Below, piece by piece: positions 3,216 to 62,690 of a DNA stretch of 64,000 nt. Numbering within the stretch: the first letter of the stretch is position 1; each line of letters begins with the position of its first letter. Origin of the DNA: Sycon ciliatum (taxonomy: Eukaryota > Porifera > Calcarea > Leucosolenida > Sycettidae); NCBI RefSeq assembly GCF_964019385.1, contig NC_088644.1, forward strand, positions 18,035,858 to 18,099,857, read 5' to 3'. Both the position numbers and the translations under genes were made by a program. The notes under the pieces were generated by a model. That model saw only the letters and a program-made list of their open reading frames with translations. It was not told the DNA's origin and did no database searches.

Positions 3216-3403
3216 CAGTCAGACCTCGCTTATCCGGTCCTCTTTTATCCGGATCCCTCACCATCCGGAAGAAGATCGTTGGTTACCGATTTACAGCATG
3301 TGCCATGCATACATACAGTATGTGTGTTCGATTACCCAGTTCCCTCGCCTATCCGGATATTTTTTTGAAAGCGGATGTGTGCGGTTATGCGAAGTCTGAC
3401 TGT
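3216..3403. mobile_element. 188-bp Tigger/mariner-like MITE
   Basis: Terminal inverted repeats CAGTCAGACCTCGC on the left and the complement of CAGTCAGACTTCGC on the right, flanked on both sides by TA. The TATCCGG words inside are typical of pogo/Tigger-type termini. Confidence 0.7.
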
Positions 3404-3825
3404 ATTTCATTTGAAGAGAATGCCCGAAAACTGGTTCATGAATTTCGGAGTCCTTATTGCTGATGATGGTGAAGAATAGCTGGAGATTTGTAGTTTTTCT
3501 TTCCCTGATAAGCTTCCTGTCTCCAAGAAAGTTGTATTACTACACCCAATTATTATTATTATTATTATTATTATTTGTGCTCCCGCGTCAATGGGCTCGC
3601 CCAAATTCGCTTGCACCGAACCATGCGAAAAAAGGCCGCCAGCAGGCAGGCAGGCTAAGAAAAATAGAAAATGGTGTCACATAAACTAATACAAACAAGA
3701 ATATCATTATTGATGACATTAATATACTGAATGAATGGCAAAGGCCATGTGAATACGGATAATACGGATAATCAGAGTACCAACAACAAAGAATGTAGCT
3801 CAAACCATTGCAGTGCCAACTTCCT

Positions 3826-5249: not shown

Positions 5250-5354
5250 CAGCTCACCCGGGATGTTGTCCCAATTATTATACCTGATTTAATTTGACTA
5301 TAAAAGATACTTTTGCGTTTGAATTGTGCCGTGACTATCAGTAAAACCAGTATA

Positions 5355-5585
5355 CTGTATAGCAGGAAATTTTCGGACGGAAATATTTTCGGACAAAGCC
5401 GAATTTCGACCTTTCATACAGATTATTACAGATTATATTATACACGTGTTCGCAAGCAGTATGCATGTATAGTGTACATAATTTCACATGAACAAATTTT
5501 AGTACGGAATTAATTTTAGTACAAAAGAGGCCGTGTACGAAATCGTATGAAAATAAATTCCGTCCTAAAATTTCCTGCTATACAG
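5355..5585. mobile_element. 231-bp TA-flanked MITE
   Basis: Perfect inverted termini CTGTATAGCAGGAAATTTT and its complement, flanked by TA on both sides. There is no coding capacity. Confidence 0.75.
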
Positions 5586-5587
5586 TA

Positions 5588-6985
5588 TTACTATAACCGC
5601 CAACGCTATAACCGATCTCTACCTGTATAGAGATTTTGCAAATGATACCATCATGGTGGTGAACTAGCGGAATCGCTTATGACCTATAAGTATACAGCGT
5701 GAGTCAGCAGAAGTGCTTATGGACGGTAGGTGTGCAGCGTGAGCCGCTAGTGAGTCGCCAGTGCTAGTGCTTCTCTGTGCCGCGACTTTGCCAAAGCATC
5801 TCAACTGATGATGACAATGCAATCGCAGAACCTCTATCCCGTTCTACACCCTGGTGTATTTCGAGACCGCCCTGATTGCGTAAGCAGCATTCATACCTTG
5901 GCGTACAACATTTTCATCTGCGCCAACGCTTGACATTTCGATTGGATATGCCGCACTACGGATTCCCTTACAATACGTCCCATGCCACAGCATGCCGGGG
6001 TGGTGTAAATTCACCCACGAGCACAAGCCTCACTAGCTTAGGTCTGGACTGCACATGAGCAGGAAGACGAGCATAACTGGAGAACAGACTAGAGCGCATA
6101 CCTGCACTACAGTAACCTCATGTTGATCTCCATTATCCGTTCCACAAAGTACTTGGTTCAAATAATCAGACTCCGGCCTTGCTCTTTTAGGTCGCAGGCC
6201 CGTCAGAATCACTTCAGGAATGGCCAGGCCTATAATGATGCGGACGCTAGCTTTGTACCCCCCCCCCCCCACATCTACACAGTAAAGCTTAGATATAACG
6301 ACACCAGCAATGATGGCAGATCATCAATTGATTTTTTGATGCTCTGCCAGCATTACCGTTGTGGTTACAAGCACATTAGAAGATATTCATGGGTGGAAGG
6401 GATTCGAAAAGGGAAAAATCTGGAGAAACAAATGACTGTCACCACCAGACAATGAAGAATGCCAATAACAACTGAAAAATGTTGTCAGCAGCACACTACT
6501 TGCAGTATATCATAGTTAAGTATGGGTGATGGCTTGGAATAAGGTTTTACATTTGTTAGCTTGCCTGCAATGCTATGATATCTAAGTTTCACTGTGCTAA
6601 GTATCTCAAGCAGCGGACCATCTTCTACTGCACATTGGCTCTTCAAGTATCAGCGCTGCACAACGATCATTCACATGTCTATCATGGTTGCACGCTCAAG
6701 CTCACAGAAGGTTCGTAGGCCGCAACTACTTCTTTTGAAGTATGAAGTCACACATTACTGCAGAACTATAACTTTCATTTAGACAATAAAAGCTAACAAA
6801 AGCTCGTTCCTAAAAAAAGTTTCAAAAGGGCTACCATTCTACTCAATCTTCGGATGGCTAGCATTTTCGACCTTGTTAGGTCTCCTCAGCGGAGCTCAAG
6901 AGTTACTCGCCGAGCATAGCCTTCAAAAAGCGGTGCATAGCCGTGCAGATTTCACCCTACGAAATACAGACCTAGTACAGTTGTG
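5588..6985. other. intergenic, no gene recognised
   Basis: No exon or element with defined ends was identified. A C homopolymer of about 14 bases sits near 6258-6271. Confidence 0.4.
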
Positions 6986-8352: not shown

Positions 8353-8508
8353 GTCTTTAACAGTTGTTGTACTCAACGGGGTTTCACTGGTCACTGAGAC
8401 ACTGAACTAACCACTGAATCAATAAATGATAAAATTAATGCTGATTTCCTTTTCCTGTGAAAAGTGAATTTATATATACTAGTATGTGATGAGATAGGCA
8501 CTGCTTAC

Positions 8509-9363
8509 CCGCACAACTTGAACTGACGACGTCTTGCCAGCCATTCTCTTCAGCACGAATCCGGCCATGAGAAATGGACGATAGCGCTCGGAACTTGGTA
8601 TGTAGTACTGATCGCTGTCTTGAAACATGGACTTCCACCATCCAATTTCCAGTGCAAGCACAGAGGCCAAGCTCCTCCAGCCCAGTATGCCACTCAAGCT
8701 TTCAACCAACTCATAACTTGGAACAACTCCATTGCGATCCATTTTTCTCAAAAGAGATATAGCTGCTTCTGTTTGTGGGTATGTCCCTGGCCAAACTTCA
8801 TCCAGTATTGTTTGGGGCACATACCGCCCCTTTGGGAAGCAGTTGATAAGTTCTTGGTAGCACTGGAGATCCTTGTGGACACCGAACTCATCCATTTTGA
8901 ACACAGCAGTGTTGATGAACTCCGGATGGCCTCGCCGCATCTTATCCATGGCCTTATACTCCTCAACAATCCTTAGAAATCCTGCACGAGTACGTTCATG
9001 CCTGGCAAATAGCTCTTTGATACGAGCCAACAGAGTTGCTCTTTCTCGTGTAACTGTTCTTGAACTAGGAAGGTTTACGGTCTCGAACTGGCGTACAATG
9101 TTGCTTTCTCTCGGTCTCTTTTTCGGAGTGACCTCCAAATCAGCTTCAATGTGAATGCCATCTGGCCTCAGTTTGCTTTCCACATGGTGTTTCTGAACTT
9201 CAGATGGTGCATGTGCTGGTGCACCTCGTGTGCCTTTCTCTGAATCGCCACTTGATTTTGAACACAATGACCGACTTGACTGCACGAGAGCACATTGAAT
9301 TGCTGGATTATACCTTCGCAGTCCCTTCGCATGACATAAATTGGTCAGCTTCAAACGCCACAT
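8509..9363 (-). CDS. ECSIT: ECSIT orthologue, first exon (partial gene)
   Basis: ECSIT is a mitochondrial and cytosolic adaptor, known in animals for assembly of respiratory complex I and for Toll/BMP signalling. The exon starts at ATG 9363 and runs 285 codons to a consensus donor (CGG then GTAAGC at 8508), phase 0. Residues 1-40 are rich in Arg/Lys with almost no acidic residues, fitting a mitochondrial presequence. Residues 40-100 look disordered. From about residue 140 the conserved PPR-like ECSIT fold is clear: MRRGHPEFINTAVFKMDEFG, CYQELINCFPKGRY, ISLLRKMDRNGVVPS and LSGILGW. The C-terminal half of the family (about 150 residues or more) was not found downstream, where the DNA is repeats. 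The gene is therefore incomplete in this window: hidden small exons, truncation and assembly error are all possible. Assignment to ECSIT is firm; intactness is not. Confidence 0.85.
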
Positions 9364-10485
9364 TCTGTTAAATATTTCAGCAACAACAGCGGCTGCTACG
9401 ATATTTATAGGCTTTAATAGCTGCTATGAACTCATTAGGCCCCACTGCTACCACAATCCATGGGGTGATGTTGCTCTTTTCTTGTTCCTCGGTTTGATAG
9501 TCTCGTAGAGGTAGGTACAAATACACGAGTTGAAATTCAATATCATCTAATAAGTCACGCGATGCAATTGCTTCAACAAGCACGTCTTTGAGTCATACTG
9601 TTACATAGTAACTTATTTGCATCGAAGATGTGTTTTCTTTGCTTGCCGCGGTTTATTTCGTGAGATGCAACATTTTTCATTTGTTCATCAGACATCACCA
9701 TAAAATCATGCCTTCTCCATGAAGGCATGATCATGACTCATGACACTGAGGCAACGCGGTGAATATGCGCATGTACGTATGCAACTATGCAGGATCAGCC
9801 AGGACTACAAAAAAATCTATTTTTACACAGTAGAATCTAAAGACTACATACAATCTAGCTACATGATCGTAATCATACAATCATAATGTCAATGCCAAAA
9901 CTAGCTGGCAATAGCTTCATTATCGACAATAAAGTCTCGCGCCGCATTGGGACTTGTTCGAGTTCATAGCCTATACTAGTATGGCGCTAGGCGTAGGTAC
10001 TTGGTATATCACTGTACCATTTGTACGTATGTCCCCTCCAAATAATTTCAAGACCCTATGCCTATGGTAGAGCGGACGACTCAGCGGCTGCTGCAGACTG
10101 AATTGTAGCTGTGTAGCGGTTAGTTCGTTTTCAGTACAAGTCATGATGCAAGTTAGCACCTAGTACCTACCAGCTCTAGCTTGCTAACGCCAAACGGCAT
10201 GCCGTGGTCTTCCCTGACAGGCTGACTCTGTATCAGAATGCGACACGCTAGCAGCCCTGAAAATACTACCGTAATAATTATTTTCTACCACTATTACTGC
10301 AGTGCATGTACATGCACGTGGATTGGAGGTTGTTAGCTGCAATACACTATACAGCGATTACTTCAATTCAAGTACCAGCAAGGAAATCGTCGACTAATAA
10401 GTGAGCCTGCTGTTACTGGTACAGTCTCACGGGCCACAATAGTCACTCAATAGTAATAAACAAGTCGACAGTTGAGCAGTGAATT
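9364..10485. promoter_or_regulatory. divergent intergenic region between ECSIT and ARSG
   Basis: About 1.1 kb separates two start codons pointing away from each other, so promoters for both genes should lie here. I see no convincing TATA box or other named motif. The 9377-9583 minus-strand frame is probably 5' UTR or chance. Confidence 0.35.
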
Positions 10486-25019: not shown

Positions 25020-27189
25020 CTGCAGGATTTGAATAAAAGAATTGTAAAAATAGCAAGCTGGTTTCAACCAGGTATTTTACGACTCCCTGGTTTCAACGTT
25101 TGCGACGCTTGCCTTTGCTTGGCAATTGGAAGCATTGATTGAAACAGTAAAGTTTAAAAGTTAATAATTATCACCTGTGAGTGCTAAATTATAAACACAC
25201 CGCACAGCTAAAAAGATGATTATTTTTTGAACCAGACATGTAGCTCGTTGTAACGTTGATCTACTTGCGCAAAATTAATTTTGGACCCGGGAGTACTAAA
25301 AACTGCTCGCAGGCTAGGCCAGGGTGCTCAGTTTCGCTCTATCCGATCGAGTAAGGCTTCCAGAAAGGCCCTCTGGTGCGCGGCCTGCGGTGCCATAATA
25401 TACCTCGCTAGCGCTGGACGTATAATAACCAGATAACAAGAGTACATAAAAAATGGTTTATGTATGTGTGATCTTGATAGCTGCAATTTTTTAATCAGGG
25501 AGTCGTCAAATATTTGACGACTCCCTGGTTGCCGCGATCCAAGTGCAGCTAACAGCCGCGTGGTATATAACATGTACAAATACAGTGATGGCTTGAAAGT
25601 GCTACGTCACAGCATAGCAACAATTATTTCAAAATTTCAAAAATTGGATCCACTTATAGGCGATTCACACGACAGGCAAATCCACGTTTGTCAAGTGCCC
25701 GCAGGAAGTGAAACGTGAGGCCGCAGTTCACACGGCCGCGGGTGGCGGCCAGAGCTCCCGCGAGTATCCGGTGAGTATACGGCGTTACTGTGGTGATTTG
25801 GAATGAGTACCCAAAAACAAAGGCCAAACAACCAGGGCTCAAGACTACCGTACCATAGTATGACCTCACAGCCTCATAACTGTAAAAGTGCCCGCAGATG
25901 AGTGCATCCGCGGGCAAAAAGGCCATGGACACTTTTGATTCCCGCGGGCAAATTTTGGTCACCCGCAGGAATATCTCCATGGTGACTTTCCTGGTCAGAC
26001 TGCGGCAAGTTTTGGTTGCCTGACGAAAAAAGAACAGCGTCCACATGTGGGGAGAGTGAAAATTCAAACTTCATTGCGAGCGTCAAGTGGTAATCTCCAC
26101 GAACGACGTCAAATTCCTTCACCCTGGGGATCGCCAACACCTTCAGTGCAATCCTTGCAACCATCTTTATGAGTTTTGTTGTTGTCCGTGGCCAATTAGC
26201 TCCTCGATATCGAGATGAAAAAATCAGTGATTATCAGCGTCAATGGCGCATCAGCGTCAAATCCTGTTTGGAGCGGAAAAGCGTGGTTCGTTCTTGCTTT
26301 TTTTTGGAGCGTCAACTCTCGCTTTTGCCGCTCTGGCGGCAAGTTACTATGGAGATTCGGATTATAATCCTAGATTTCGATTTTGCCGCAGTCTGACCAG
26401 GCCCTAAAATAATTCCTTAGCCATAGCCCCTTGCTGCTTGTGAGCACATGTTTCGCAGTGCACTAGTACAGTGAGTAGTGGCCACTGGCCACTCGTCAAG
26501 ATGGCGGCAAATCCGAGAGTACAAAAATTTCGACTCTGCCTATGTGCGCGGCGGATGCGAATCTCGCACGTGCATGCAAAATCTAGCCTTAGTTCTGAAG
26601 TAATTAGTTAGTTCTGCAGAGCTGGGTAGAGCAAGTGTGTAGCCATGCCAGTGCAGGAACGACGACCTTTTCCGAGAGAGAATGTGGCTCTTTTCATCCC
26701 AACATTTTACTCGCCACGCTCTCCCTCCCAGCTTATTGATACGAGTATGTGCTACCGAGTAGAAGTCTCCATCTTCAGAGTAGGCCTGGCAGAATCGCAA
26801 GGTTGAAATACTTGCTCACTTGGTTTTTTGGTCCTTTGAGGTGTTGATGTGATTGTTGTGTACAACTCGAAGTGACAAACTTGAGACCCCCGCGCCACAA
26901 AGTTTCGTTTGGCTGTTCAATGAAAGGACGTATGGAAGCAGGGATAAAAACTATCGTGGCTGCCGGCAAAACTCTTAGTAATGTAATAAACGGGGGTGTG
27001 ACTTTGGTAATTCCAAGGAGAATGTACGCACGGCCATTCCACAACGAAGACGAAACTACGAGCTCAAAAACACGCCGATTTTCAAACAAACGACGCAGGA
27101 AAGAAGACATGGCCGCAGTGTTCCCGTGTGGCCTTCAAAACACCTAATTTTACTTCGATAGCGGCTGGTTCAGGGCAAATTCAGGCCCA
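25020..27189. other. intergenic or intronic, repeats only
   Basis: Holds one half-copy and one full copy of a CAGGGAGTCGT hairpin repeat (25069-25090, 25496-25527). It also has an inverted pair CCTGGTCAGACTGCGGCAA / GCCGCAGTCTGACCAGG (about 25985 and 26385) bounding a 420-bp MITE-like block. The 26775-27147 frames on both strands are not convincing exons. Confidence 0.4.
25496..25527. repeat. perfect 32-bp palindrome, CAGGGAGTCGT family
   Basis: Each 16-base arm starts CAGGGAGTCGT and the two arms meet with no loop. A second member is at 28751-28783. Confidence 0.85.
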
Positions 27190-28505
27190 ATTTGTGCGCT
27201 AGAGCAACTTACGCAATACATGGATAGCGCCAGTCACATGGAATCCCTCCCTGCAGTTCAGTTTGCGTACCGCAAAAACCACTCCTGCGACGATCTTCTC
27301 GCTCTGGTGGCAAATGATTGGAGTCAAAGTCTAGACCAGAACGAGTATGTAGCTGCAGCTTTCCTCGACATGTCCAAAGCCTTCGACACTGTCAACCACA
27401 GTTTGCTCCTCCAAGAACTGTTCGAGATTGGTGTGGGAGGGGTCGCACTGCGTTGGTTCGCATCATACCTTACTGACCGGCAGCAGAGAGTTGTCACCAA
27501 GTCTAGCAGAGGTGCCTGTTATTCTGCCTCCAGAGGTGTACCTCAAGGATCTATCCTTGGACCTGTCTTGTTCAATCTTGCTGTCCGCAAACTGCCAGAG
27601 TGTGTTGCTAGTACCAAGGTCCGTCAGTTTGCTGACGACGTTTCTGTCTACAAATCCGGAAGGGATCCACAGAAGCTCACTGCAGACTTGGCCAGAGACG
27701 TTCTGTCAATCCGCAACTTCCTCCGGGACCACGGCCTTAAACTCAACGCGGAAAAGACACAGTTCATCATATTCCGCCCAAAGTCCAAGGCGGTCCCAGC
27801 TAATCTCCAATTGTCAATTGACAGCACTAGCATTCCGCCTTCAGCCACCATCAAATACCTTGGCCTCCTGTTCGATGAGCATCTTACGTACCGAGATCAC
27901 ATCACGCTCCTGGAACGCAAGATAGGCGCTAAACTCGCTGTGTTCAGGAAAATCAAACACAATCTAACACCTGCTGCTAAACGAGTCTTCTACTGTTCCT
28001 TCATTCAAGCCCAACTTGAATACGGCTCTAATGCATTTGCGCACAGCCTCCAAGTCTCGCAAATGGACCGCATTACTCGCATCTCCAACCGTGCTGTTCG
28101 GATTGTCTTCGGCTACCCGAAGTACTACGATGCTTCTCTTGTTCTAGCTAGGAACTATCTCGCTGCTATCTCCCTTAGATATCAATTTCGCCTGTTTGTA
28201 CTGGTGTTTCGAGCCCTCCATAAGTTGTGCAGTCCACTACTCTCGACCTGCTTCCTCCCTCGCACTGCCACTTCACAAACCTCAGCCCGTACACGCTCTC
28301 AATCCACTTTGTCACTTAGTCTTCCTTTAGTTTCTCGCCGCTATGGTTTATACTCGCTTAGCTTTCTTGGTTCTGATCGTTGGAATGCGCTTCCTGCTGA
28401 TATTCGCACAATCTCCTTGCTCAGAAACTTCCGTTCATCTATTCAACAATTCATAGGGTACCCTGTAAAAAGGCCCTAGGCCTGTGGGACTGCCCTATTC
28501 AAAAT

Positions 28506-31519: not shown

Positions 31520-34500
31520 CCTTCGTCTTTCGTCATCTTCTTGTCACAGCTACATGTAGCATTCTTGGTTCGCTGTGACGTTTAGCTTGTTTTCGTCTTG
31601 AGTGCGCTCACCTTCCCCTTTCTCAAGTTATTTCACAACTTAAAACCTTCCGAGTTGGAAGGCTGATGGCGTGCGCATTCAAGACATGATGAAGCTAAAC
31701 GTCAGGTCATTGAATGTCAGTACCACAGCAGTCATTATTGTGCTACCTGTTGCACGTTATGACTCATCAATATCAAGCTTATAACTGCCAGTGTTCGACA
31801 AATACGGGTAACTTGTAAACCTTTGGTCCTTTCTTCTTTTAAAAGTTTAATCCTTGGCTCTCCATCCGAGTTAAATATAAGATGTGAAAAAGCTTTTCTA
31901 CCGAGGGTATGTCTAATCAGGACTCTACTCTGCAGTGTACATTGGCTGTCGCTTGTATTACTGGGCTTCCCAAATAAAAATATCTCAAAAAAGTTCTTTT
32001 CTGCTTTCAGAAAAAAAATCATGTTGGATGTGCACTGCGAAATTTTCGTTCTAAATTCGGTACTTCTTAAAGGTAGTTTTCCGACTGTGTGCTGCCAAAT
32101 GCTGGTGCTAAGCCAGACTCTATCCCAGACACATGTTTTCTATGTGATTTCTCTTTGTTGCCCGTGAAGTAGAACCTATTTTGTATAGTAATAATAATAT
32201 TTAAAAAGCTTACGTGGAGATAAAAGTGTAATCAACGCAATAAATAGAGTAAGCTGCGCACTCAGTACAAACACCATTAGCAAAACTTGTTTTTCATTTT
32301 CTCGCGCTAGTTAGGGTCTAAATTATTACTTGCATTGTGCGTATATATATTGAGTTTAGAGCTAATGTTGATTTGCCAGTAATCCTCTGACGAGATGGCG
32401 ACGAAAACGTTTAGGAACAAGCTTCTTTATTTACATGAAAACAAGTTTTGCTAATGGTGTTTGTACTGAGTGCGCAGCTTACTCTATTTATTGCGTTGAA
32501 TAATAATATTACTTGTTAATAATTGTAACATGGAAAAATGTGGGCACAAGTTATGCGATCGAATCCACCAACTAAACCAGATTTTGAACAGTCAGACGTG
32601 CACAATCTAGCACAAAACTGACAAGGAGTTAAGCACTGCTCGATAGCGCTAACCAACGGCCTTCCAACTTGGAAGGTTCATGGATATTAGTGCTAATTCC
32701 AAAGAGACTTGATCGCATGGACTCGTTGGACTTGATCGCATACTAAGTAACTTGTGCCCACATTTTTCCATGTTACAATTTTTTTCCTTCGCTCGCCATC
32801 TGAGTTCGAATAATAATAATTTCGTAATCTATACCTTCGCATGCAAAGACGCAAATCCACAGAATCAAGAAGACACTTCCTTTCATCTATCAAATGTTTT
32901 CTTTCCCTTCTCTTCAGGATAGTAAAGGGAATGTTGAAAATTTGGAAAACACGTACTCTAGTTTCAGAAATTTTCGGTGCTCAATATTTTCGGTATGAGA
33001 GCAAAAGGCTAGGTTAGGTGAACAGAAATTTTCGGTACAGAGAAGCAGTTCTGTTCAGAAGGATGCTTTGAATAGTGTCATGTTTCAATCTTTATGCATT
33101 GAGTGCCATAGGCCGTGTCTCATTGTACCCTGTGTTGTGGTCAGAAGAGACCACAGGACTCTGGCTGTCATATCGGTGGTGATTCATCCTTTTACTTCAT
33201 GTAGTTCGTGTACCACTGCATTGTACTGTAGACTACCGTGCTAGTATTGCTTGCAGCTGCCTGCTAGTGCTGTTACGCATGCCTGATTACGAGCTTGCCC
33301 GGCGAGGGTATTATTCTTGTGTATGTTCAAGCATAATTCTGACTTCTGGGTGAACAGAAAGAGAACAGTCATTACTTTTAGTGTCCAAGCATTGGGCGGA
33401 AGAAGTGAGTCTCTCACAAACGGAGAGCATTGTGTACCAGAGCGGGTCTCTCACTATCGGAGAACTCGGGGTCTCAGTTCTTCATCGGAACATTTATTGG
33501 TAGCAGAGGATGGTTTCTATGTAGAGCCATGAGCAGCAACGAACCAGTTCAGATAGAGCCGGCGGTACCGGGCAACTCGGATGAAGGCGATTCGAGCACA
33601 CAAGGCGTTCCTACGCAAGCGGCGTCGGACGCTGAAGGAACCGGAACCGCAGTACCAGTGGAAGGAGACAGTGATGCGCCACTCGAGAGTGGGTCCCTGT
33701 CAACACGAACTTCCGACAACGCAGTTTCAGACGTGTCAACCTTGCGGGCCTGGAAGACGCAGGCAAAAGGGGATTTCACAAAAGTTCGCAGACGTGTGCT
33801 GGTGACCATGACGAACGGTGAGTGCAGTACCGAAGAAGTTGTAGCCGGTTTCACAGAATTAGAGGAGGCATACGAGAGGGCCACCGCAGTGATGGCGGAT
33901 TTGATGGGTTGTTATGCTGTGCAGGGCGACATCGCTGGGAAAACAAAGGTTTTGTCAGAAATAGAGACAATGGAAAGTCAGCTCAGCGCCGCTGGAGATG
34001 CACTAGCTTCATTTCTTTCGCAGTCAACCAACACGGGCTACAGTTTTGCATCACATGGCCAACAGCAACACTTTGATTCAGAGCCAGTTTCAGAGTTCTC
34101 ACGCACCACTGCCAGTACTGCGTCTCGGTTAGGTGCGCCTGCACGTACGCGCTCCAGAAGTGGTATCAGTTACAGCTCACCGCACGGCCAAGCACGCGAT
34201 TACCTGTCATCGATTGATACTGTGGTTGACCACGAGAGGCCAACAATCGATCAAGCATACAATCACAGAGACCGGTCTTCAGAAGGAGTGAGGATGAACC
34301 TCATGAGTCATGTGGACAGGGAAGCAGAAGATCAGTCCGCTGAGTCAGCGTCCGCTATAGTTCGTAGAACCAGCGCTAGCGTCACCGCTACGAGTGCGAG
34401 TAGCACGGTGAATTCCGTTTCCAGCGCTAGCCCTCCTTCGTCTTCGAACTTGACAGCGTCCCAGGACGGGACAACGACGAGCACCACGCGGCCTGTGCAG

Positions 34501-37500
34501 CAACTCGGGGCGAGCAGTCAGACTGGTACTCGGACGCCGGCACCAGGGACGTCACCCAACAGACCAGCGCCACCAGCTGCACCGCACGGTCCGCAGCCTG
34601 CTAGATCTACGAGTGGTAGTGTGAGTAGCAGTGCGACGGCATCACAAAGTGCGGCAGTGACAGCGTCAGCAAGCGGGACTGTGTCTGTTAGAACGGCGTC
34701 CAGGGGCAATGCGTACCCGAACCCTGCAGCGCCGGTGTTTCAGTCTCAGAACAGTCAGTCAGCAGCCGGCCTGAATGCTGGTAGACGACCGCCAGTGCCA
34801 TCACAAGCGAACCCAGTTTCCTACTCAGGACATGGGGGATACGGATATCAGCCAGTCGGCCTGCAGCCCCAAGACTGCCAAGTGCTTCAGGGTCAACCGC
34901 CAGCGGTTGGCACTAGTGCGAATGCAGCTGGACCGTGGATGCAACTGCAGAAGATCAGCATTCCGGTGTTTGACGGAGACAAACGCAGATTTGAAGGGTG
35001 GCATGCAGCATTCATGGCATGCATCGACGCTGCGCCCATGACACCAGAGACGAAGATGTTGCAGCTTCGACAGTACCTGGCAGGCGAACCTCTTCGGGCT
35101 GTCGAGAGCCTGGGATACTCGGCCGGGGGATATAATGCAGCGAAGCAGCTGCTTGAAAGGAAGTACGGCGGTGAGCGGCGGCGAATCGCAATCCATACAG
35201 AGGAGCTGGAGAACATCAAGCCTGTCCGGGTCAACAAGCCAAAAGACTTGGAGCGATTCGTAGACCTGCTAACAGTGGCAGTGTCCAACCTGAGGGATGC
35301 TGGACGGGCAATGGAGCTGCAGCCTGGTACCTTCTATGGCAAGCTGCTGAAAAAGCTTGACCGGCAGATGTTGGCACAGTACCATCGCTGGCGCCATGAC
35401 AAGAGGATGGCAGAATCGGTTGAAGTTTTCCTGGAATGGTGTAGTCTGGAGGCGGAGTTTCTAACGACTGCCATGGAAACCGTCGACGGGCTGATAGAGA
35501 GCCAACCCAGCAGTAGCAATACTGGCCGGCAATCGCAGTCTGTGCGACCGGTGACACTCGTGACTGCGAAGGAGGAAAAACCGGCGCCTGGGTGCGCTCA
35601 CTGCAAAGGGAGCCATCCGGTCTGGAAGTGCTTAACCTTCAAGGCCTCGGCACCAACGCAACGCTGGCAGGTGGCACAGAGTTCTGGCCTATGCTTCCGA
35701 TGTCTCGGGCGAGGGCACTCTGGCAGAGAATGTCAGATGTCAAGGACATGTGGAATCGACGGATGTCAGAAGTCCCATCACCGATTGCTGCATAATCCCC
35801 GCCGTGAATCAGCATCCGACAACGGGGCAGGCAGGCCTAAGCCTCAAGCAGCCAAATCGACGGCAGAGCCTAAGCCAGCCACCACCAAGTCTAGTGGCCC
35901 AGTGACTCACAATGTTCCGTGCAACTGCTCTGCGGCATCCCAGACAGCGCCTAGCACGGAAGGGGAGCACGTCGGTCTCACCACTGCAATGCTGCAGCGA
36001 GAGCCTGTGTCCTTACGCACGATACCCGTGGTCTTGATCGCCGGCAACCGACGAATGACTGTCAATGCCATCTTGGATGACGGAAGCACTCGCTCTTACG
36101 TTAACAGCGATGTAGCAGCCGAACTGGGAGTTCAGGGACAGCAACCGGAAAGGATGTCTGTTCACACCCTCAACGGCCACAAAGAGGTGTTCCTCACCAC
36201 CCCAGTGGCTCTGGAGCTGCAAAGTCTGGACGGGCGTCTGAGAACCGATGTCGAGCTCTACACCACCAAGAAAGTCGTGGGGGATTTCAGCGTTATCGAC
36301 TGGCAGCAGCAAGGGAGAAAGTGGGAGCACCTCCAAGGCGTCCAGTTCCCACCACTATCATTATGTCGTTCCAGCACCATAGACGTCCTGTTGGGGCTGG
36401 ACCACGCTGACCTCCACGTTTCCCTGCGAGACATTCCCGGAAAGCCGGGCGAGCCTGTAGCCAGACTAACGCCGCTAGGATGGACATGTGTAGCACCATC
36501 AGCAGTTGCTCGACACACTGGCGTTGGGATCACTCTTCACGGCGTGCAGATGCATGAACCACTCGATAGGCTTCTGCGGAAGTTCTGGGAGTTGGAGGAT
36601 GTGCCGGCAGAAACTGAGACGGTGATCAGCGCAGATGATCAGCAGGTGGTCAGCATGACGAAGGCGACCATGTCGAGGATCGACCAGCGCTATGAAGTCG
36701 GCGTTCCATGGCGAAAGAAGCCCCCGGACCTGGCAGAGAATTACGACATGGCTCTCCGGCGCCTGGAGTCAACAGAACGGCGGCTCGCAAAGCAGCCGGA
36801 AGTGTCCACAGCTTACAGAACCACCATCAAGCAGTATGAAGCCAAGGGCTACGTGCGCCGTGTGCCAGTGGGTGAGAACAGCGTCCCCAGGTGGTTATTG
36901 GCACATTTTCCAGTTGTGAGGATGGGCAAAAGCACAACCAAGGTACGCATCGTGTTCGATGCATCTGCCAAGCAGCAAGGAACGTCGCTCAATGACGTGA
37001 TTCACCAAGGGCCTAAGCTCCAACAAGATTTGAGCCAGGTGCTACTGAGGTTCCGGAAATACCCGGTGGCACTGGCTTGCGACATCAGCGAGATGTATTT
37101 ACAAATCCAGCTGAGAGAGGAGGACAGGCCATTCCATCGATTTCTGTGGCGAGAGGATCCCAGTGAGAAGCCGGAAGTGTACGAATTTCAGCGAGTCGTC
37201 TTCGGCGTCAACTGTTCGCCTTTCCTCGCGCAATTGGTCACGCAAGAGCATGCCCGAACGTCGACATCGAAGTACCCGAACGCCGCTGAAACCGTCCTCG
37301 AGTCGACATACATGGACGACAGCCTGGACTCCGCACCGTCGGTGAGCGCTGGCATCGACAACTACCACCAACTGACCAGCCTCTGGGGCGAAGCAGGCAT
37401 GCACGCCAGGAAATGGCTTTCGAACTCGCAGGAGATCATGGATAAGATCCCTGAAGTGGACCGGGCTGCCAACGTCGCCTTCGGAGAAGCGCTGCCCACC

Positions 37501-40500
37501 ATCAGGACGCTGGGTGTGCAGTATGATGCGAGCACAGACAACTTTGGCTTTACCTTCTCACCACCGCCAACAGAAGTTAAGCTCACGAAGCGAGCTGTAC
37601 TGAAGAAAGCAGCAACAATCTTCGATCCGCTCGGCTTCATGGCGCCAGTCACAGTCTGCGCGAAGATGCTACTGCAACGAATGTGGTCTGCCGGTCTGCA
37701 ATGGGACGATCCGCTAGAGCCTACCCTGGAAGAGGAAACGAGGCAGTGGTTCAATGAGCTGCCAGAGCTTGCCAAGATTCGGATACCGAGATGTCTACAC
37801 TTCGACCTGACGACCGGCATCGCAGCGACGGAGTCGAAGCTACAGTGCCATGTATTTGCTGATGCCTCTGAGCAAGCCTATGGAGCCGTCGCATACGCTC
37901 GTGTGAAGAGCAGTGGTGGCGTTCAAACTCGCCTTGTCGCAGCCAAGACAAGGGTGGCGCCTCTACATTCAGTGAGCATTCCAAGGTTGGAGCTCATGGC
38001 GGCCGTCATGGCAATTCGGTTGGCAAGCGTCGTGACTCGTGCGCTAGGCTTAGCTATGTCAGACGTGGTACTCTGGACAGATAGTCAGAATGTTCTTTAC
38101 TGGATCAGAGGCAGGAGCCGAAGTTACAAGGCATTTGTGGCGAACCGAGTCAGCGAGATCCACAACCAGAGCCAACCGTCACAGTGGCACCATGTTCCCA
38201 CAGACCAGAATCCAGCTGATGTGGTCTCTAGGGGTACAACGGTCCCCAATCTCGACACGACCGTCTGGTTGAATGGCCCTGCTTTCCTCCAACAAGAGCC
38301 GGAAAAATGGCCCATGGGAACAGTGCCAGCCTATCCGCAGTCCGAGGCACGGAAAGAGGAGAAGAAAGTGAGCGCCGTATCATCTGGAACCACGGTCAGC
38401 TTGCTGCAAGTGACCGCTAACGTTGACGATTCCAGCCCACTCCATGCCAACAGGTTCATCAACTGGGCACGGGGAGTACGACTGTGGGCGCGGGTGCTGC
38501 GGTTCGGTGAGAACTGCCGTCGACAAAAGGAGGATCGTCAGGGAGGGGAGCTGATGCCCGACGAATTGGCAGCCGCAGAGACGGAGATCATAAAGCTTGC
38601 GCAAGGAGAAGCGTTTCATGCGGAGATGCCAGCGCTCCGGAACAAGCAATCCATTCCAGAGCGTAGTTCCTTGAGGTCCTTGTGTCCGTACATCGATGAG
38701 GAGGGTGTCATACGCTGCCGTGGTCGACTTGAATTCGCAGACTTTCTGCCACGAGATGCCGTCAACCCGATCATCCTGCCAAGACACCATACCGTAACCA
38801 GGTTAATCGTCCAGCAATATCACGACCAAGCTCAGCATGTCGGAGGCGTCAACCAGGTGTACGCATCTCTTTGCAGCCGCTTTTGGATAGTAGCTGGGAG
38901 GGAAGCCGTCCGAGACGTCGAGAGGAAATGTCCGCGATGCAAGCTACTCAAGGCCAGACCCACACAGCAAGTGATGGCACCATTGCCGCGGAGCCGCATC
39001 ACACCATCCTTCAGGGCGTTCGCTCGAGCTGGAGTTGACTTTGCTGGGCCGTTTGAGACAGTACACGGCCGCGGGCGAAAGCGGACAAAGCGCTACTTGT
39101 GTCTATTCACTTGCTTGGCCACGAGGGCAGTACATCTGGAGATCGCATACAGCATGGACACGAACTCCTTCCTCAATGCCTTCTACCGCTTTGTTGGACG
39201 ACGGGGACTGCCAGAACGGGTCATCTCGGACAACGGCACCAACTTTGTCGGCGCACAAGGAGAATTGAAGGATCTTGTTGCGCAAATGGATGAAGAGCAG
39301 ATCATTCGGACAGTGGCGGATCAGAGGGTGACATGGCAGTTCAACCCGGCGGCCGCCCCTCACTTCGGTGGAGTATTCGAAGTAATGATACGTGCGGCTA
39401 AGCGAGCCGTGTCAGCGATTTTGAAGTCTGCCGACATCACAGACGAAGAGCTGACCACAGCTTTCGTCGCAGCTGAGAGTCTCATCAACTCAAGACCATT
39501 GACGTACACATCCAGCTCGCCGTCAGATGAACCGCCTCTTACGCCGAACCACTTCCTATTCGGGCAGTGTGGAGGAACATTTGCACCATCATCGGTCGAC
39601 ACAACCGACTTCAACCCGCGGAAGCGCTGGAGGAGAGTCCAACAACTAGTCCACCACTTCTGGCAGCGATGGATACGGGAGTGGCTTCCGTTACTTACCC
39701 AGCGCAAGAAATGGCGGAAGCCTCATGATGACGTCAAGATCGGAGATGTTATGCTGTTGCTGAGTCCCAACACCCCTCGCGGTAACTGGCCTCTGGCAAG
39801 AGTGTTGGAGACATTTCCTGGACGAGACGGACATGTGCGTGTCGTGAAAGTGCAAGTTGGAAAGTCTACGCTAATCCGTCCTATCAGCAAGCTGTGCCCA
39901 ATTGAGTCACCTGCTGAGTGAACATCTTAAGACGGGTCAGACCATCACATGGTTTTAGACTTTGTAATGTCAACTATTTCATGCTGTAGATTAGGCAAGC
40001 CGTTTGCTGCAGTGTTATTTTCTTTGCTTCTCCTTTCTAGCTGTCGATACTATACTAGACGTTGCTAAGCTAGGTGTTTAGTTTCGATAGTGCTCCACAC
40101 ATCGAGGAAGGGGAGAATGTTCAGAAGGATGCTTTGAATAGTGTCATGTTTCAATCTTTATGCATTGAGTGCCATAGGCCGTGTCTCATTGTACCCTGTG
40201 TTGTGGTCAGAAGAGACCACAGGACTCTGGCTGTCATATCGGTGGTGATTCATCCTTTTACTTCATGTAGTTCGTGTACCACTGCATTGTACTGTAGACT
40301 ACCGTGCTAGTATTGCTTGCAGCTGCCTGCTAGTGCTGTTACGCATGCCTGATTACGAGCTTGCCCGGCGAGGGTATTATTCTTGTGTATGTTCAAGCAT
40401 AATTCTGACTTCTGGGTGAACAGAAAGAGAACAGTCATTACTTTTAGTGTCCAAGCATTGGGCGGAAGAAGTGAGTCTCTCACAAACGGAGAGCATTGTG

Positions 40501-46500: not shown

Positions 46501-49500
46501 TCCATCCCGTGCAGTGTGTGGCAAAGCTGGCCTGCGTAATCTAGGCAACACATGCTATGTCAACTCCGTGCTACAAGCATTCTTTATGAACTCTGGGTAA
46601 GGCGGCGCTGCTTCCAACAATAAAGAGGTTTTGCAGAGCAAACGTTCGCAATGATTTTCGCGTTCCGGCTTGCGAAACTATTGGGAACATTGCGCGAAAT
46701 TTGTGTTTTTCATGATTTTTGCTCCAAGAAAGTATGTGTGCACTCGCGCTTGTTAGAGAAGTGGTCTTCATCCGATTATTTGTTTGTTGCGAGTGGCGGC
46801 ACCCCGAATCACTGCCTGAGACGAGAGCTCTTTGACTACGTTGTCCATGGCCGGAGACCCACAGACAAACGGGTTGGCTTGTGCCGTAATCTGGCACATC
46901 AACACCTGAAATTTTAAAAAGAAGAAGGCATCATTGATGAACTCAGATAGTGAGCCAAGGAAAAAAATTGTAACATGGAAATTGTGGGCACAAGTTATCA
47001 TTGATGACACATCATTGATGTAACCGACTCTGAGCAGTGAGAAGACGAGCAGGCAGGAGATCGGAGATGGTTCCGGAGATGAAGCAACGGGCTGCCACAT
47101 CTATGGGAAAGCTAGCATTCGCGGACCTTGCCAAGAGTAGAGATCAAGCACAAAAATGAGGATTGAGGGTGGCTCACCTTGCACCACCGGTCCGCGATGA
47201 GCGAAAATTACTGCGAAAGTTTGTTTCGTGTTTCCTGCAACTTTCGCGAGCAAAAAACTGCGAACCTTCGCACGAAGTTTCACTTCTCGTGATGTCAAAC
47301 AAAAATTTGCGCGAACGTTCGCACTGCAAAACCTCTCTAATGTCTCTGGTGTTTCTGTCTTTGTTTTTCATACTGGTGTTTCTCTCTTTGTTGTTTAAGC
47401 TGGTACTCCTGCTGCTGCTGACTTGTTGCTGCTGCTGCTATTGCTGCAGGCTTTGTTTTGATGCTGGTGCTGCTGTCTGTGTTGTTGATGTCAATGCTGC
47501 TGTCTTTGTCCTTGTTGCTGGTGTTGCTGTCTGTACCATGACTGGTGTTGCTGCTGTCTATGTCATGGCTGCTGGTGTTGCTGTCTGTGCCATGGGTGCT
47601 GGTGTTGCTGTCTGTGTCATGGCTGCTGGTATTGCTGTCTGTGTCATGGCTGCTAGTGCTGCTGTCTGTGTCATGGCTGCTAGTGCTGCTGTCTGTGCCA
47701 TGGCTGCTGGTGTTGCTGTCTTTGTCATGGCTGCTGGTGCTGCTGTCTGTGCCATGGCTGCTGGTGCTGCTGCCTGTGCCATGGCTGCTGGTGCTGCTGT
47801 CTGTGTCATGACTGCTGGTATTGCTGTCTGTGTCATGGCTGCTGGTATTGCTGTCTGTGTCATGGCTGCTGGTGTTGCTGTCTGTGCCATGGCTGCTGGT
47901 GTTGCTGTCTGTGCCATGGCTGCTGGTGCTGCTGTCTGTGTCATAGTTGCTGGTGCTGCTGTCTGTGTCATAGTTGCTGGTGCTACTGTCTGTGTCATAG
48001 TTGCTGGTGGTGATACTAGTGATTGTGGTGCTATTATAACACTATGCAGTTGCATTGTCTAACTGGCTACTTGTCACGTGTTTAGAGTTTAGACACACAT
48101 ACCAGTTTGTATGTGCTTTACCCATGCCTTCTTACGTGTTACATTCTCACATCTGTGAATGTTTTTGTCTTTTGTCATTCTGTTTCTCACTGTGTTCTTA
48201 TCAGTCAGAGTATTCAGTTGATTACCACACTGTTGTTGATGCTGCTGCTGCTGCTGGGTCCTTCTGCTCAGCTGGTGCCCTGTGGGGGTGCTGGTGGTTC
48301 AGTTGCCCCGCCACCTTTACTGCTGCTTGTAACTAGGGTGTTACAGTGTACTGTATGTGTGTGCATGCATGGTTGAGTGTGCGTGTGTGTGTGTGTGTGT
48401 GTGCTGTTATGTGTGTGCACTACAGCATCACATGCATTGAGGTGGTCATGGTAGTGGTGGTGACAGCAGCAGCAGTGCTGGTTCTCACTTAGTCTCATTG
48501 TCGAAGAATGCATTCTATCATCATCATCATCAGCATCATCATCATGCTTATTGTTTTCTTCTGTTGCGGTGTTGGTCCAAGATTCCGCGAGTCCGTGCTC
48601 TTGTGTACTCCTTGTCCGGAGGATGGCAGCAAGTCCTTGATTGGTGCTTTGCAGCGTGTAATGGCCTACCTTCTGCTCACTAAGGTAAGCAGTTCAGGTG
48701 TTGTGTGCGGCCACTGGCTAGTCTATGTGTACATCATGTAAGTAAGCAGGATGCTCCCTTTTGTCGAAGAATTATGTATGCGTGTGCATGTGGATTCACT
48801 GGCCGAAAGTAATGTACAGTAAGTATCGTTTATAAAGTGACCGGATATAATGATATACCGGTTATAGTGATAGAGCACGTCAAAATCAAAATCAAATCTG
48901 AAAAAATACAGCTAAAATATCACTATATACACTATTATCGGCTATACCGATATATCGCTTATTGTGATGGCCTTCAGGAAGCAAACCATATCAAATGTAC
49001 AGGAAAATATCGCATATAATGATCAAGAGTGATCTTTCTGCATGCTCTTGTCCGTTTCTGGCTGTGTTGCCTCTCACGATGATGTTGCCAACTCACGTAC
49101 ACAGCCACTCATGTCTATTTCTGGCTCTACGCAACTCGTTGGACACCGAGTAGATCTACGATCTACGTGAGCACGGATCCAGCTCAGGCTTTTTTTGGAG
49201 AACACGCTGAAGAAGCAGCCATGCCACATGATGTATCGAAGTTCTAGTACATGTACAGTCTGTACTCGTACTGCACTGCCATGCACTGCTCTGTGTCATG
49301 CACCGGTACACAGTCCGCGGAGCATGCATGCACTTTCAGCATGCTTTTTCCAGCGTGTACGCATCATTTCATGTGCAGTCATGTGCCATGTGTCGGTCAA
49401 ACATGCAAATCGGCTATAGTGATGCACCGGATATAGTGATACATTTTCGAAAATCAAAGGGGCACGTTATATCCGATATTTACTGTAACTTCAAAAAGCT

Positions 49501-58319: not shown

Positions 58320-58980
58320 TACTAGCTAGGGCCTATATCGCGAAAAATATCGGAGGTCAAAAACCACTTTCTGTCCGATTTAAAAAAACGTTTTTGTTCA
58401 AATTTATGAGTTGAAGCATCATGAGGGCAAGCCGTTTGTCCCAAATTTTTGCTGGTGTGCAATGAATCCTTCTCTATATTTGGGGCCTGTGAAAACCACA
58501 CCCATACGTTTGCATTTATGTCACGAATAAGAGGAAAACCTACTTTTACAAACAGGAGTTCACTTTTCATTTGTTTCTATGAGGCAGGATTGTACTAAAC
58601 TATGTTATAAGTGCATTTCAATTCTCTTTCTGGAATTCAGGCCCACTATAATCACACACTGTTGAGGCAAATCCACTGGAATCAATTACGAGAGACGATC
58701 ATTTCTTCGCATATTTCTGTAAACAGTGGGTAAATGAGTCCAATGACCTAACATCATTTTGACTTAACTTTATGATACTGACGTAGTGCGATGCAACTAG
58801 CAAGAAAAACTAAATCATTATGGGGCCAATTTTGCAAAATTTAAATTTCAAAGCATATTGGCACCTTTTCGAATCGGGGTTCCGAATACCAGCTTCGTCT
58901 CCTCACGCAGAAGCCTGTATTTTCAACCAGTGTATTTTGCTGATTAATCTTCCTTGATGTGTTCTGATACTATGGGAATT
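58320..58980. other. intergenic, no gene recognised
   Basis: AT-rich DNA with no supported feature. Confidence 0.35.
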
Positions 58981-59166
58981 ACTGACATGATTACATGAAG
59001 CAACAGCTGAAGGTTGGAAGCACTTTATTGTCACGAATACAAACCTGTCTCTTTCTTAGAGAACGCCTTGTTTACTGACATGATTACATGAAGCAACAGC
59101 TGAAGGTTGGAAGCACTTTATTGTCACGAATACAAACCTGTCTCTTTCTTAGAGAACGCCTTGTTT
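58981..59166 (+). repeat. perfect 93-bp tandem duplication
   Basis: 58981-59073 and 59074-59166 appear identical, starting ACTGACATGATTACATGAAG. It ends 75 bp before the first hammerhead. Confidence 0.92.
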
Positions 59167-59240
59167 GGGCTACTTTGAGGGGCCATAACCCCTCCAAAGT
59201 GCCCAAATACATACCCTAATAATATATTCGGCCTCATTTC

Positions 59241-59297
59241 CTCTGTGCTGCGCTGATGAGTCCACAAAGGACGAAACAGTTCTGTCTGCAGATTGAG
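59241..59297 (+). ncRNA. type I hammerhead ribozyme, copy 1
   Basis: This is a self-cleaving RNA motif. The core CUGAUGA is at 59253-59259. Stem II is GUCC/GGAC around an ACAAA loop (59260-59272), then GAAA at 59273-59276. A tiny stem III (ACAG/CUGU) ends in UC, with cleavage expected after C59286. Stem I pairs CUGCG (59248-59252) with UGCAG (59287-59291), then after an internal loop CUC (59241-59243) with GAG (59295-59297). Every invariant core base is present. Such a short stem III usually works as a dimer or tandem, as in retrozymes and Penelope-like elements. Confidence 0.88.
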
Positions 59298-59523
59298 TAT
59301 TTCGCTCCTGCTCTTGCAGCAGTTGAGCACTCTTGTGGGGTAGTGCCTTTGCTGTTTGCGTCATTCAGAGCTCACTGACTTGTCAGTTTGAGTACTCTGG
59401 TAAGGTACGTTCGGGCCTGGTTTAAATCTGGCTTTGGAAAATTTATTTTTCATTGCTATCCGGTTCGGCCTCATTTCCTCTGTGCTGCGCTGATGAGTCC
59501 ACAAAGGACGAAACAGTTCTGTC
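59287..59523 (+). mobile_element. retrozyme-like unit between two hammerhead cleavage sites (237 nt)
   Basis: The predicted cut sites after 59286 and 59523 would release a 237-nt RNA with 2',3'-cyclic phosphate and 5'-OH ends, suitable for ligation to a circle. This is the known layout of animal retrozymes: tandem type I hammerheads a few hundred nt apart with no protein. Only one full monomer and the flanking ribozymes remain. Penelope-like pseudo-LTRs carry similar ribozymes, but no reverse transcriptase is nearby. Confidence 0.65.
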
Positions 59524-59535
59524 CGCAGATTGAGT
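59478..59535 (+). ncRNA. type I hammerhead ribozyme, copy 2
   Basis: Same core as copy 1: CUGAUGA 59490-59496, stem II 59497-59509, GAAA 59510-59513, cleavage expected after C59523. The only change within the core region is U to C at 59524, which converts the G-U pair at the base of stem I to G-C, so the fold is kept. Confidence 0.88.
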
Positions 59536-59551
59536 ACCCTAATCATAATAA

Positions 59552-60139
59552 ATGTAAAAGAGAAAAGGACATATGGATACGAGTTAAGAGTAACTCTCCA
59601 TCACTGTAACATGATACTATATACAGTCAGAAAGTGCAATAACTAGGCACAAAACTGACAGAGTACTGAGACATTCGACGTCCTGACACCTAACTTCAAC
59701 ACATCTCCGTAGCGCTAACCGACAGCCTTCCAACTTGGAAGGTTTTATCTTTGATATTTATGACCCACCCAAGTTGGGTGGTGTGCTGCTTTGCTGCTTC
59801 GAATTGTAGTTAGACCGCTTTGTCAAATATCGTACTGGTCTCGTCATCGTCCAGTAACAATCGACATTCTTTGCTCCGTTGGGACTGTAGCTTTTGCTCG
59901 TTTTCGTTGCGCTTGCCTTCCCCTCTTTGGTCTTTCCATAACCTTGAACCTTCCAAGTTGGAAGGCTGTCGGTTAGCGCTACGGAGATGTGTTGAAGTTA
60001 GGTGTCAGGACGTCGAATGTCTCAGTACTCTGTCAGTTTTGTGCCTAGTTATTGCACTTTCTGACTGTGATTATAGTATCATGTTACAGTGATGGAGAGT
60101 TACTCTTAACTCGTATCCATATGTCCTTTTCTCTTTTAC
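59552..60139. mobile_element. 588-bp long-arm palindrome with 12-bp direct repeats
   Basis: Arms of about 191 bp (59554-59744 and 59947-60139) are nearly identical, starting GTAAAAGAGAAAAGGACATA. A 12-bp direct repeat, TAATCATAATAA, flanks it at 59540-59551 and 60140-60151, resembling a target duplication. The arms include the GCCTTCCAACTTGGAAGG and ACAAAACTGACAGAG modules seen at 7.0 and 32.6 kb. It inserted a few bases after the second hammerhead. Confidence 0.85.
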
Positions 60140-60483
60140 TAATCATAATAATTATTATATTGATTTTCTCTTTTTGGACACTCATAGCATTGCAATATAG
60201 GTGTCAAACTGTATATTTATATTTCAAATTTACAGAAAAAGTATTTCGACATGAGCTACCTTAATGTCACAGTGTACTTGCGGACAGTTCTGGATGTCTT
60301 CGCTGTTTTAAAAGTTTTGACCAACTTCCAGTAACCACAGAAGAAAGCAAAGTTCACCATCATGTATACATCATGTATACATCATGTATATTTCAAATAG
60401 CAGGTGGCAAGTATTGCAGCAGATCCAACCACCATATGGAATAAGTGCACCAACCAACTAAACTAGCTGCGTCAACACATGTG

Positions 60484-61670: not shown

Positions 61671-61990
61671 CGCACACATGTATACACACACACATGTAGA
61701 AACCCGTACACGAACATTCACACGTCCACACACAGTAAGCATAGCTAGCTAAACACAGACACTGAGACAGGTAATCAATTCAGCAACTACACAGGGTCCA
61801 GGAGCATGCGACGTGCAATCAAGCTATTCAGAGTTGGAAAAGAAATTTCATTTGGACGTGTAGCTACATGTACAGTACTTGGAAGTACAACTTAAGCAAC
61901 CACCCCACCACCCCACCACCCCACGTTGCAAGCAAAAACCACGGTCGTTAAGATCGTGTACAGTACGTACATGTACATGAACATGATTGT

Positions 61991-62690
61991 CCTTCCATGT
62001 ACTTCCAAGTACTTCCATGTACTTCCATGTACTTCCAAGTACTTCCATGTACTTCCATGTACTTCCAAGTACTTCCATGTACTTCCATGTACTTGCATGT
62101 ACTTGCATGTACTTCCATGTACTTCCATGTACTTCCAAGTACTTCCAAGTACTTCCATGTACTTCCATGTACTTGCATGTACTTGCATGTACTTCCAAGT
62201 ACTTCCAAGTACTTCCATGTACTTCCATGTACTTCCAAGTACTTCCAAGTACTTCCATGTACTTCCATGTACTTGCATGTACTTCCATGTACTTCCAAGT
62301 ACTTCCATGTACTTCCATGTACTTCCATGTACTTCCAAGTACTTCCAAGTACTTCCATGTACTTCCATGTACTTCCAAGTACTTCCATGTACTTCCATGT
62401 ACTTCCATGTACTTCCAAGTACTTCCATGTACTTCCAAGTACTTCCATGTACTTCCATGTACTTCCATGTACTTCCAAGTACTTCCATGTACTTCCAAGT
62501 ACTTCCATGTACTTCCATGTACTTCCAAGTACTTCCATGTACTTCCAAGTACTTCCATGTACTTCCAAGTACTTCCATGTACTTCCATGTACTTCCATGT
62601 ACTTCCAAGTACTTGCATGTACTTCCATGTACTTGCATGTACTTGCATGTACTTGCATGTACTTGCATGTACTTCCAAGTACTCATATTG
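61991..62690. repeat. 10-bp minisatellite, 70 units in perfect register
   Basis: Every ten bases reads ACTTCCATGT, ACTTCCAAGT or ACTTGCATGT (the first and last units each differ slightly). No insertion or deletion interrupts the 700 bp. All six frames stay open over most of the array because the unit contains no stop in any phase, so the 230-300 residue ORFs here are artefacts. Confidence 0.97.

Follow-up and report, generated by a model that had tools for sequence, protein, structure and literature searches.

A dispersed hammerhead retrozyme family in the sponge Sycon ciliatum, with insertions that suggest copying round one small circular RNA from a fixed base

In a 64,000-nt stretch of DNA from the calcareous sponge Sycon ciliatum (referred to here as the window), two hammerhead ribozyme motifs lie close together on the same strand. 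The original prediction, made from the letters of the DNA, had read them as a retrozyme in an animal genome, and the host is indeed an animal. This locus raises the question of what the element is and how it came to be inserted where it is found. Both motifs, at 59233-59297 and 59470-59534 of the plus strand, are 65 nt long and carry the full type I core that had been described for them: CUGAUGA, GAA and C17 at the cleavage site. Stem I is divided into an outer helix (CUCA/UGAG) and an inner one (CUGCG/UGCAG, with CGCAG in copy 2), in agreement with the internal loop proposed earlier. Stem II (GUCC-ACAAA-GGAC) and stem III (ACA-GUUC-UGU) are the same in both hammerheads. The predicted cuts, after 59286 and 59523, are spaced by 237 nt as computed in the original prediction, and double cleavage would release the plus-strand RNA 59287-59523, a candidate circle. 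The two hammerheads belong to 73-bp repeats (59227-59299 and 59464-59536) with a single difference, which exchanges a G-U for a G-C pair in stem I and keeps the pair, as had been noted.

We scanned both strands of the 64-kb window with a strict descriptor that required the core, a stem II of 4 bp and minimum lengths of 3 bp for stem III and 4 bp for inner stem I. The scan returned two hits, exactly the two hammerheads, compared with one hit in total across 1500 Markov-1 random sequences of 64 kb. The core pattern with at most one mismatch was present at four places in the window and was exact at two of them, both the named hammerheads; 0.35 were expected by chance, and none of 100 shuffles reached four. 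An Rfam check had been suggested as well. Hammerhead_1 was the top match for both motifs (28.2 and 25.2 bits; E 0.00017 and 0.0017 in a 1.2-kb stretch), but a scan of the whole window at the gathering threshold, which is 34 for Hammerhead_1, gave no entries, and this check was therefore passed only below the curated cut-off. The exact 32-base core was not found in viral and bacterial/archaeal contigs, a set that possibly excludes records of the sponge genome itself; a looser core pattern matched seven viral-contig stretches, the loops of which differ. By calculated energy, the 65-mers reached -16.2 (copy 1) and -16.7 kcal/mol (copy 2) in an alternative fold versus -8.6 and -10.1 in the hammerhead fold. 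Of 200 shuffled versions of each 71-nt stretch, 77 and 58 folded equally well, and the 237-nt unit was mildly stabler than its shuffles, of which 15 of 200 folded as well. In the folded motif, loop 2 ACA could pair with loop 1 UGU.

The hammerheads stand at each end of a plus-strand insertion of 308 bp, or 1.3 units (59227-59534). It is bounded by a 9-bp target site duplication, TACCCTAAT, at 59212-59220 and 59535-59543, a sequence that occurs at these two positions only in the window; random placements with the same slack produced a 9-bp match in 7 of 20000 cases. The TA of the right copy corresponds to the next two template bases (UA). Six bases, AATATA (59221-59226), separate the left copy from the first base of the element, and they may have been added without a template or be the decayed remainder of a duplication that was once longer. 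Counted from its fixed end, the unit spans 59298-59534 (+) and terminates at 59534 with GATTGAG. This last base is also the 3' end of most sampled genome copies, and is probably where reverse transcription started. The unit has a GC content of 47% and is non-coding, with at least one stop in each of the six circular frames, which rules out an endless open reading frame round the circle (237 = 3 x 79). No poly(A) tail is present at this insertion, and box patterns of a Pol III promoter were matched in the unit only with one or two mismatches. Tandem type I hammerheads and a 237-nt unit fall within the range of about 150-450 nt for metazoan non-LTR retrozymes, and the 9-bp duplication exceeds the 4 bp beyond which their duplications lie. 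We discarded the class of Penelope-like elements, which carry an open reading frame for a reverse transcriptase and a GIY-YIG endonuclease, as 308 bp cannot accommodate such a frame and the unit is interrupted by stops in all frames.

The surrounding sequence holds genes and other repeats. An ECSIT-like protein exon lies at 8479-9423 on the minus strand (100% identity across 91% of the query), and an uninterrupted Pao/BEL retrotransposon frame of 2170 aa at 33409-39921. Two minisatellites occupy 47462-48009 (27-bp unit, 20.3 copies) and 61988-62683 (10-bp unit, 69.6 copies). A ubiquitin hydrolase frame ends at 52282, about 7 kb before the retrozyme insertion, and may form one gene with a Usp38-like_N match in another frame upstream of it. 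Just 5' of the insertion is an exact 93-bp tandem duplication (58979-59164). On the other side, a fold-back element with near-perfect inverted repeats (59554-60139; arms 59554-59621/60072-60139 and 59623-59744/59947-60068, 100% each) begins 10 bp beyond the right duplication. The sequence TAATCATAATAA is found on both sides of the fold-back element, within CTAATCATAATAA at 59539-59551 and 60139-60151; the same few bases were hit by two mobile elements.

Further genomic copies, the absence of which had been named as a refuting outcome, are clearly present in the Sycon ciliatum assembly (538 Mb, 313 contigs), in which the window occupies C2:18035858-18099857. A search with a query from the window gave at least 78 matches (sample 1; 40 of 3307 candidates scored), and one with a mid-unit stretch of locus L047 gave at least 138 (sample 2; 40 of 644 candidates scored). 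The first query ends at GAG and so favours copies ending there, the second was cut mid-unit, and both samples favour the copies most similar to their own query. We took 38 and 36 loci, respectively, that is, 74, or 75 including the window and 72 without three segmental copies. Dropped before the counts were L031 and L032 (segmental copies of L026), L102 (a copy of L081) and blocks shorter than 50 nt. This left 93 blocks, and in 89 of them the fetched stretch includes the 3' end. The retrozyme family is a dispersed multicopy element, with unit lengths that cluster near 226 and 237-239 nt in the sampled loci; core-to-core spacings outside the window are mostly 226-243 nt, with a few odd ones. 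The 80 bounded insertions comprise nine of less than one unit, 32 of one to two, 22 of two to three and 17 of three or more, and the longest runs to 23.6 tandem units. Most places listed by the sample 2 search are 96 to 100% identical to the query, and the family is recent.

The 3' ends of these copies are fixed. Single-unit references force a match to stop at GAG, and tandem references are therefore the decisive test of the end; with these, homology stopped 0-5 nt past GATTGAG in all 36 sample 2 loci (35 without the segmental copy). When the whole sample was compared with single-unit references, 76 of the 89 insertions ended exactly at GATTGAG, and seven more ended at most 4 nt away. The fixed base forms the foot of stem I in the hammerhead and lies 11 nt downstream of the cleavage site. 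Six of the 89 end elsewhere: L017 (minus), L018, the first block of L029, the inner block of L030, L034 and L051. In three loci, L019, L021 and L027, the end comes 4 nt earlier, at GCAGAT, and the last hammerhead is altered; this is perhaps a second start site. The 5' ends vary: counted apart on the two references, the 67 insertions of the 226 type begin at 43 phases and the 22 of the 237 type at 17. Most 3' ends are situated beyond the cleavage site, and their template was therefore not a linear cleaved monomer on which copying began at its own 3' terminus. The end expected of such a self-primed monomer is ...CTGTC, and only L051, a divergent unit, adjoins that base. Two very short pieces were also seen, a 17-nt insertion spanning the cleavage site (L069, 1475-1491) and a 10-nt insertion, GCAGATTGAG, that is one base short of it (L088, near 415). 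Both would fit copying that stopped close to the 5' end of a cut RNA.

Some insertions occur in pairs. Eight loci (L067, L068, L070, L072, L074, L081, L090 and L095) contain tail-to-tail pairs across 18-36 bp of mostly (TA)n, or nine if the 17-nt piece in L069 is counted; within that distance there are four head-to-head pairs (L099, the second gap of L081, L091 and L017) and one in the same direction (L073). These counts are not independent of one another, because the partners often belong to another subtype and flanks are shared among some loci. Twin priming from both strands was set aside as a source of the tail-to-tail pairs on similar grounds, namely, partners of another subtype and several pairs with common flanks.

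TA directly follows the fixed end in 70 of 76 insertions. Since the template past this end continues with UAUUUCGC, the TA is common to the duplicated target and the template, and it may reflect endonuclease preference, primer pairing, or both. The 12 nt beyond the end average 86% A+T, and at least 10 of the 12 are A or T in 55 of 80 insertions. For target duplications, we used the 80 of 93 blocks that have both ends inside and a 3' end within 4 nt. Duplications of at least 9 bp were detected in 23 of these 80, compared to 69 of 6294 swapped flanks, with the simplest repeats filtered and the near-simple duplications of L068, L069, L088 and L096 still among the 23. Sample 1 alone, unfiltered, gave 13 of 33 versus 9 of 1056; L018, L034, L048 and L051 were left out by hand from the first duplication table. 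The other 57 of the 80 had no duplication of at least 9 bp by this test, and many of them are in (TA)n, where a duplication is unreadable. Where readable, the duplications measure 9-18 bp. CCCTAA is present in the window duplication, oriented as for end-attached Penelope relatives. It is missing from all of the 22 other duplications of at least 9 bp; its presence is thus attributed to chance, and telomere-directed insertion was rejected.

Arrays of this kind might be ordinary satellite DNA, in which unequal crossing-over multiplied the units and the hammerhead was carried along. The 226-nt arrays of up to 23.6 units would suit such an origin, and gene conversion would likewise give alike units. 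However, dispersed copies, of which 63 of 80 are under three units, a fixed 3' base, a variable 5' base and duplications are the signature of insertion, and we consider a satellite origin very improbable.

We compared the units of the 39 insertions with at least two full 226-type units (162 units). All full units were identical in 16 of the 39, compared with a mean of 2.7 and a maximum of 8 in 2000 shuffles of the units among insertions. Thirteen variant columns, in nine insertions, were private, that is, present in every full unit of their own insertion and in no other sampled 226-type unit; 1000 shuffles gave a mean of 0.02 and a maximum of 2. As two of the columns are pairs of neighbours, the 13 represent about 11 events. 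L089, L092 and L093 have five identical full units apiece, with private changes. In its context, the 2-nt insertion of L089 occurs five times among the sampled loci, always in L089. A genome search with the L089 stretch (at least 180 matches; 40 of 381 candidates scored) listed only L089's own units at 100% over 341 nt, and the next matches listed, at 99% over 337 nt, were without the 2-nt insertion. The units of L098, which matches the stretch over 341 nt at 98%, also are without it.

The remaining 23 of the 39 insertions are mixed, with variants in only some units (26 in L048, 13 in L036, 10 in L094, nine each in L067 and L099.1, and eight in L097). Two unit lengths are found within one array in L036, L067, L094 and L097, a pattern consistent with templates that were mixed or concatemeric, or with insertions that abut. 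The uniform insertions are probably young copies of single circles, and the others may be older, mixed or abutting. Homogenisation of arrays in DNA may also be a source of alike units.

The private variants bear on the nature of the template, which might also have been a linear concatemer, left uncleaved after transcription of a tandem array in the genome and copied from the same fixed internal start, with cleavage and circles playing no part. An anole Penelope-like element initiates internally and inserts without the need for hammerhead cleavage (PMC11167929), long arrays are available for transcription (L048 and L072), and some arrays contain mixed units. Conversely, all five full units of L089, L092 and L093 carry variants that are absent from other sampled 226-type units, and a source array with the 2-nt insertion of L089 was not found among the matches listed in the search described above. 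A concatemeric template is therefore unlikely in our judgment. Together, the fixed ends, the duplications and the private unit variants fit target-primed reverse transcription round one circular RNA; an insertion would then be DNA made by running round one small circle, nearly always from the same base.

We also examined variation in the hammerhead. From 89 distinct sequences, we removed 2 for their length and 11 that run into flanks or have other lengths, leaving 76 for the pair count. A third subtype (stem II GUUC/GAAC, stem III CAGCAUGCUG; 26 copies, 8 distinct) has a longer stem III loop, which was collapsed so that these copies fit 65 columns; the count of changes excludes four masked loop sites. 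The core without N7 had 19 changes at 10 sites, the paired positions 97 at 32 and the counted loop positions 59 at 18. The core is calmer than paired and loop sites, and paired sites are hardly calmer than loops. The worst-kept pair, A15.1-U16.1, is broken in 11 of the 76 distinct copies. Double changes that keep a pair were detected in stem II at 30:38 (C-G to U-A; seven sequences, all of one subtype) and in stem I at 1:65 (two sequences) and 20:55 (one sequence). These data partly show that the hammerhead is under selection.

We also searched the genome for a possible source of the enzyme. At least 13 GIY-YIG matches were obtained (150 of 944 candidates scored). A minimal-type hammerhead motif accompanies nine of the 11 distinct GIY-YIG places fetched (L055, L056, L058, L059, L061/L065, L062, L063, L064 and L066), and L054 and L060 are without one. 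A Pfam check of L062 and L063 covered Penelope-like frames of 749 and 807 aa, both with GIY-YIG and both followed by minimal hammerheads. The 749-aa frame has a reverse transcriptase match under the cut-off and the 807-aa frame has none in Pfam; their translations look alike. In L062, two Penelope-like frames are arranged head-to-head (2824-5073 minus and 4896-6224 plus). Four 3' regions of one Penelope-like family end about 85-88 or 124 nt past GAAAC, and this distance of the 3' end from the hammerhead differs from that of the retrozyme. A single 13-nt match (E 0.42) is all the sequence that the retrozyme has in common with the Penelope-like loci, which makes the link between them circumstantial. 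Penelope-like elements with minimal hammerheads are nevertheless the likely enzyme source.

The presence of hammerhead-bearing Penelope-like elements in this genome could also mean that the insertion is itself a decayed element of that kind, reduced to its two pseudo-LTRs. This is hardly credible, considering that the fetched GIY-YIG loci share at most the 13-nt match with it, that the window hammerheads, with their stem III and stem I internal loop, are unlike the minimal Penelope type, and that the retrozyme unit is common to dozens of loci. It is possible, though doubtful, that a LINE-type non-LTR reverse transcriptase makes the copies in an otherwise identical life cycle; as only the enzyme differs, the odds of this alternative are not exclusive of those of our main reading. 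Two RVT_1 frames inside the window (4362-5288 and 27148-28479), both read as LINE type, are in its favour, and so is the retrozyme end 11 nt past the cut, compared to about 85-88 and 124 nt past GAAAC for the Penelope-like elements. In contrast, the junctions examined have no poly(A), and the AT-rich targets and fixed internal start resemble the Penelope-like enzyme of PMC11167929.

Our main reading is that the element is a non-autonomous non-LTR retrozyme copied by a Penelope-type enzyme from one circular RNA with a fixed start, to which we assign a probability of roughly 0.73. According to this model, read-through transcripts would be cut by the hammerheads into RNAs with a predicted size of about 226-239 nt, and these would be ligated into circles. 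A Penelope-type endonuclease and reverse transcriptase would nick AT-rich DNA, preferably at TA. Judging from the fixed genomic end, copying would start at the foot of stem I, which lies 11 nt beyond the sealed cleavage site. The enzyme would then cross the sealed site, round the circle for less than one to 23.6 laps and halt at varying points, and repair would leave the target duplication of 9-18 bp. The window copy would represent one such event of 1.3 laps. More tentatively, and at somewhat less than even odds, the sealed hammerhead may act as a landing pad: the Penelope-type reverse transcriptase would recognise the closed circle at stem I, and the nicked ...TA-3' end would anneal to the UA immediately past stem I and be extended for up to about 24 laps.

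Metazoan non-LTR retrozymes have tandem type I hammerheads, non-coding units of about 170-400 nt, tandem arrays and target duplications of more than 4 bp, and share their genomes with Penelope-like elements (PMC7229834). The Sycon element is like them in all those features, which, with its dispersed copies, bears out the retrozyme reading of the original prediction; the host here is a calcareous sponge. Its GC content of 47% compares with values below 50% in the text of that study and below 45% in a legend. With an energy model that leaves tertiary contacts out, the circles are predicted to hide the hammerhead (237 nt, -66.5 versus -54.1; 226 nt, -75.9 versus -65.5), which PMC7229834 says of plant, but not of most metazoan, retrozymes. 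Plant LTR retrozymes, as presented in the relevant passages of PMC4918200, have type III hammerheads, 4-bp duplications, repeats of 300-400 bp and circles of about 700 nt, and have in common with the Sycon element dimeric hammerheads and a proposed circular RNA intermediate. We excluded this class, as the window motif is type I and the duplication is 9 bp; 15-bp duplications are given for Nematostella in the same passages.

The Penelope-like element of PMC11167929 resembles the retrozyme in its internal start, AT-rich target, tandem or partial-tandem copies and nearby hammerhead. Unlike it, the retrozyme has no open reading frame, possesses stem III and a stem I loop, and starts 11 nt past the cut; in Sycon, the UA of the template has its counterpart in the TA of the target, whereas the start site reported in PMC11167929 is non-homologous to the cut DNA. 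Four Penelope-like copies of Sycon terminate at one or the other of two 3' ends separated by about 39 nt, which recalls the start sites and the 30-40-bp optional tail described for the anole (PMC11167929). The hammerhead satellites of newts and salamanders, according to PMC7229834, have a short stem III, as in Sycon, where the palindrome CAGCAUGCUG in stem III of one subtype could pair between two copies. The Sycon element is unlike them in unit size, host and dispersed few-unit insertions with target duplications.

Copying of a primed circle by the enzyme of an autonomous element has been proposed before (PMC7229834 and PMC7761336). The main text of PMC7229834 does not mention a fixed 3' base or private variants identical from lap to lap, and the sections consulted of PMC7229834, PMC7761336 and PMC4918200 do not name sponges as retrozyme hosts, the word "sponge" appearing only in a microRNA reference. 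In the open-licence full-text literature, we found no paper on hammerheads in sponges, Porifera or Sycon, and none on rolling circle reverse transcription in connection with a hammerhead and circular RNA; for Amphimedon, the one paper that came up is about the RECK gene, judging by its title. For retrozymes and target-primed reverse transcription, the retrozyme passages of PMC10886601 concern LTR elements. The literature covered was open-licence, and fixed ends may have been described earlier elsewhere.

The Sycon family is a new member of the metazoan non-LTR retrozymes and places hammerhead retrozymes in sponges. From the genomic footprints, we argue that its members went through a circular RNA. 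The return of retrozyme RNA into DNA has so far been a proposal, and in the Sycon genome one can read off where copying probably began, which targets are preferred and how many laps were made. Because a readable family and a Penelope-like candidate are found in one genome, the mechanism could be tested in vitro with a single RNA and a single protein. If the sealed hammerhead does serve as a landing pad, animal retrozyme arrays would be fossil records of single RNA circles, each with its own variants.
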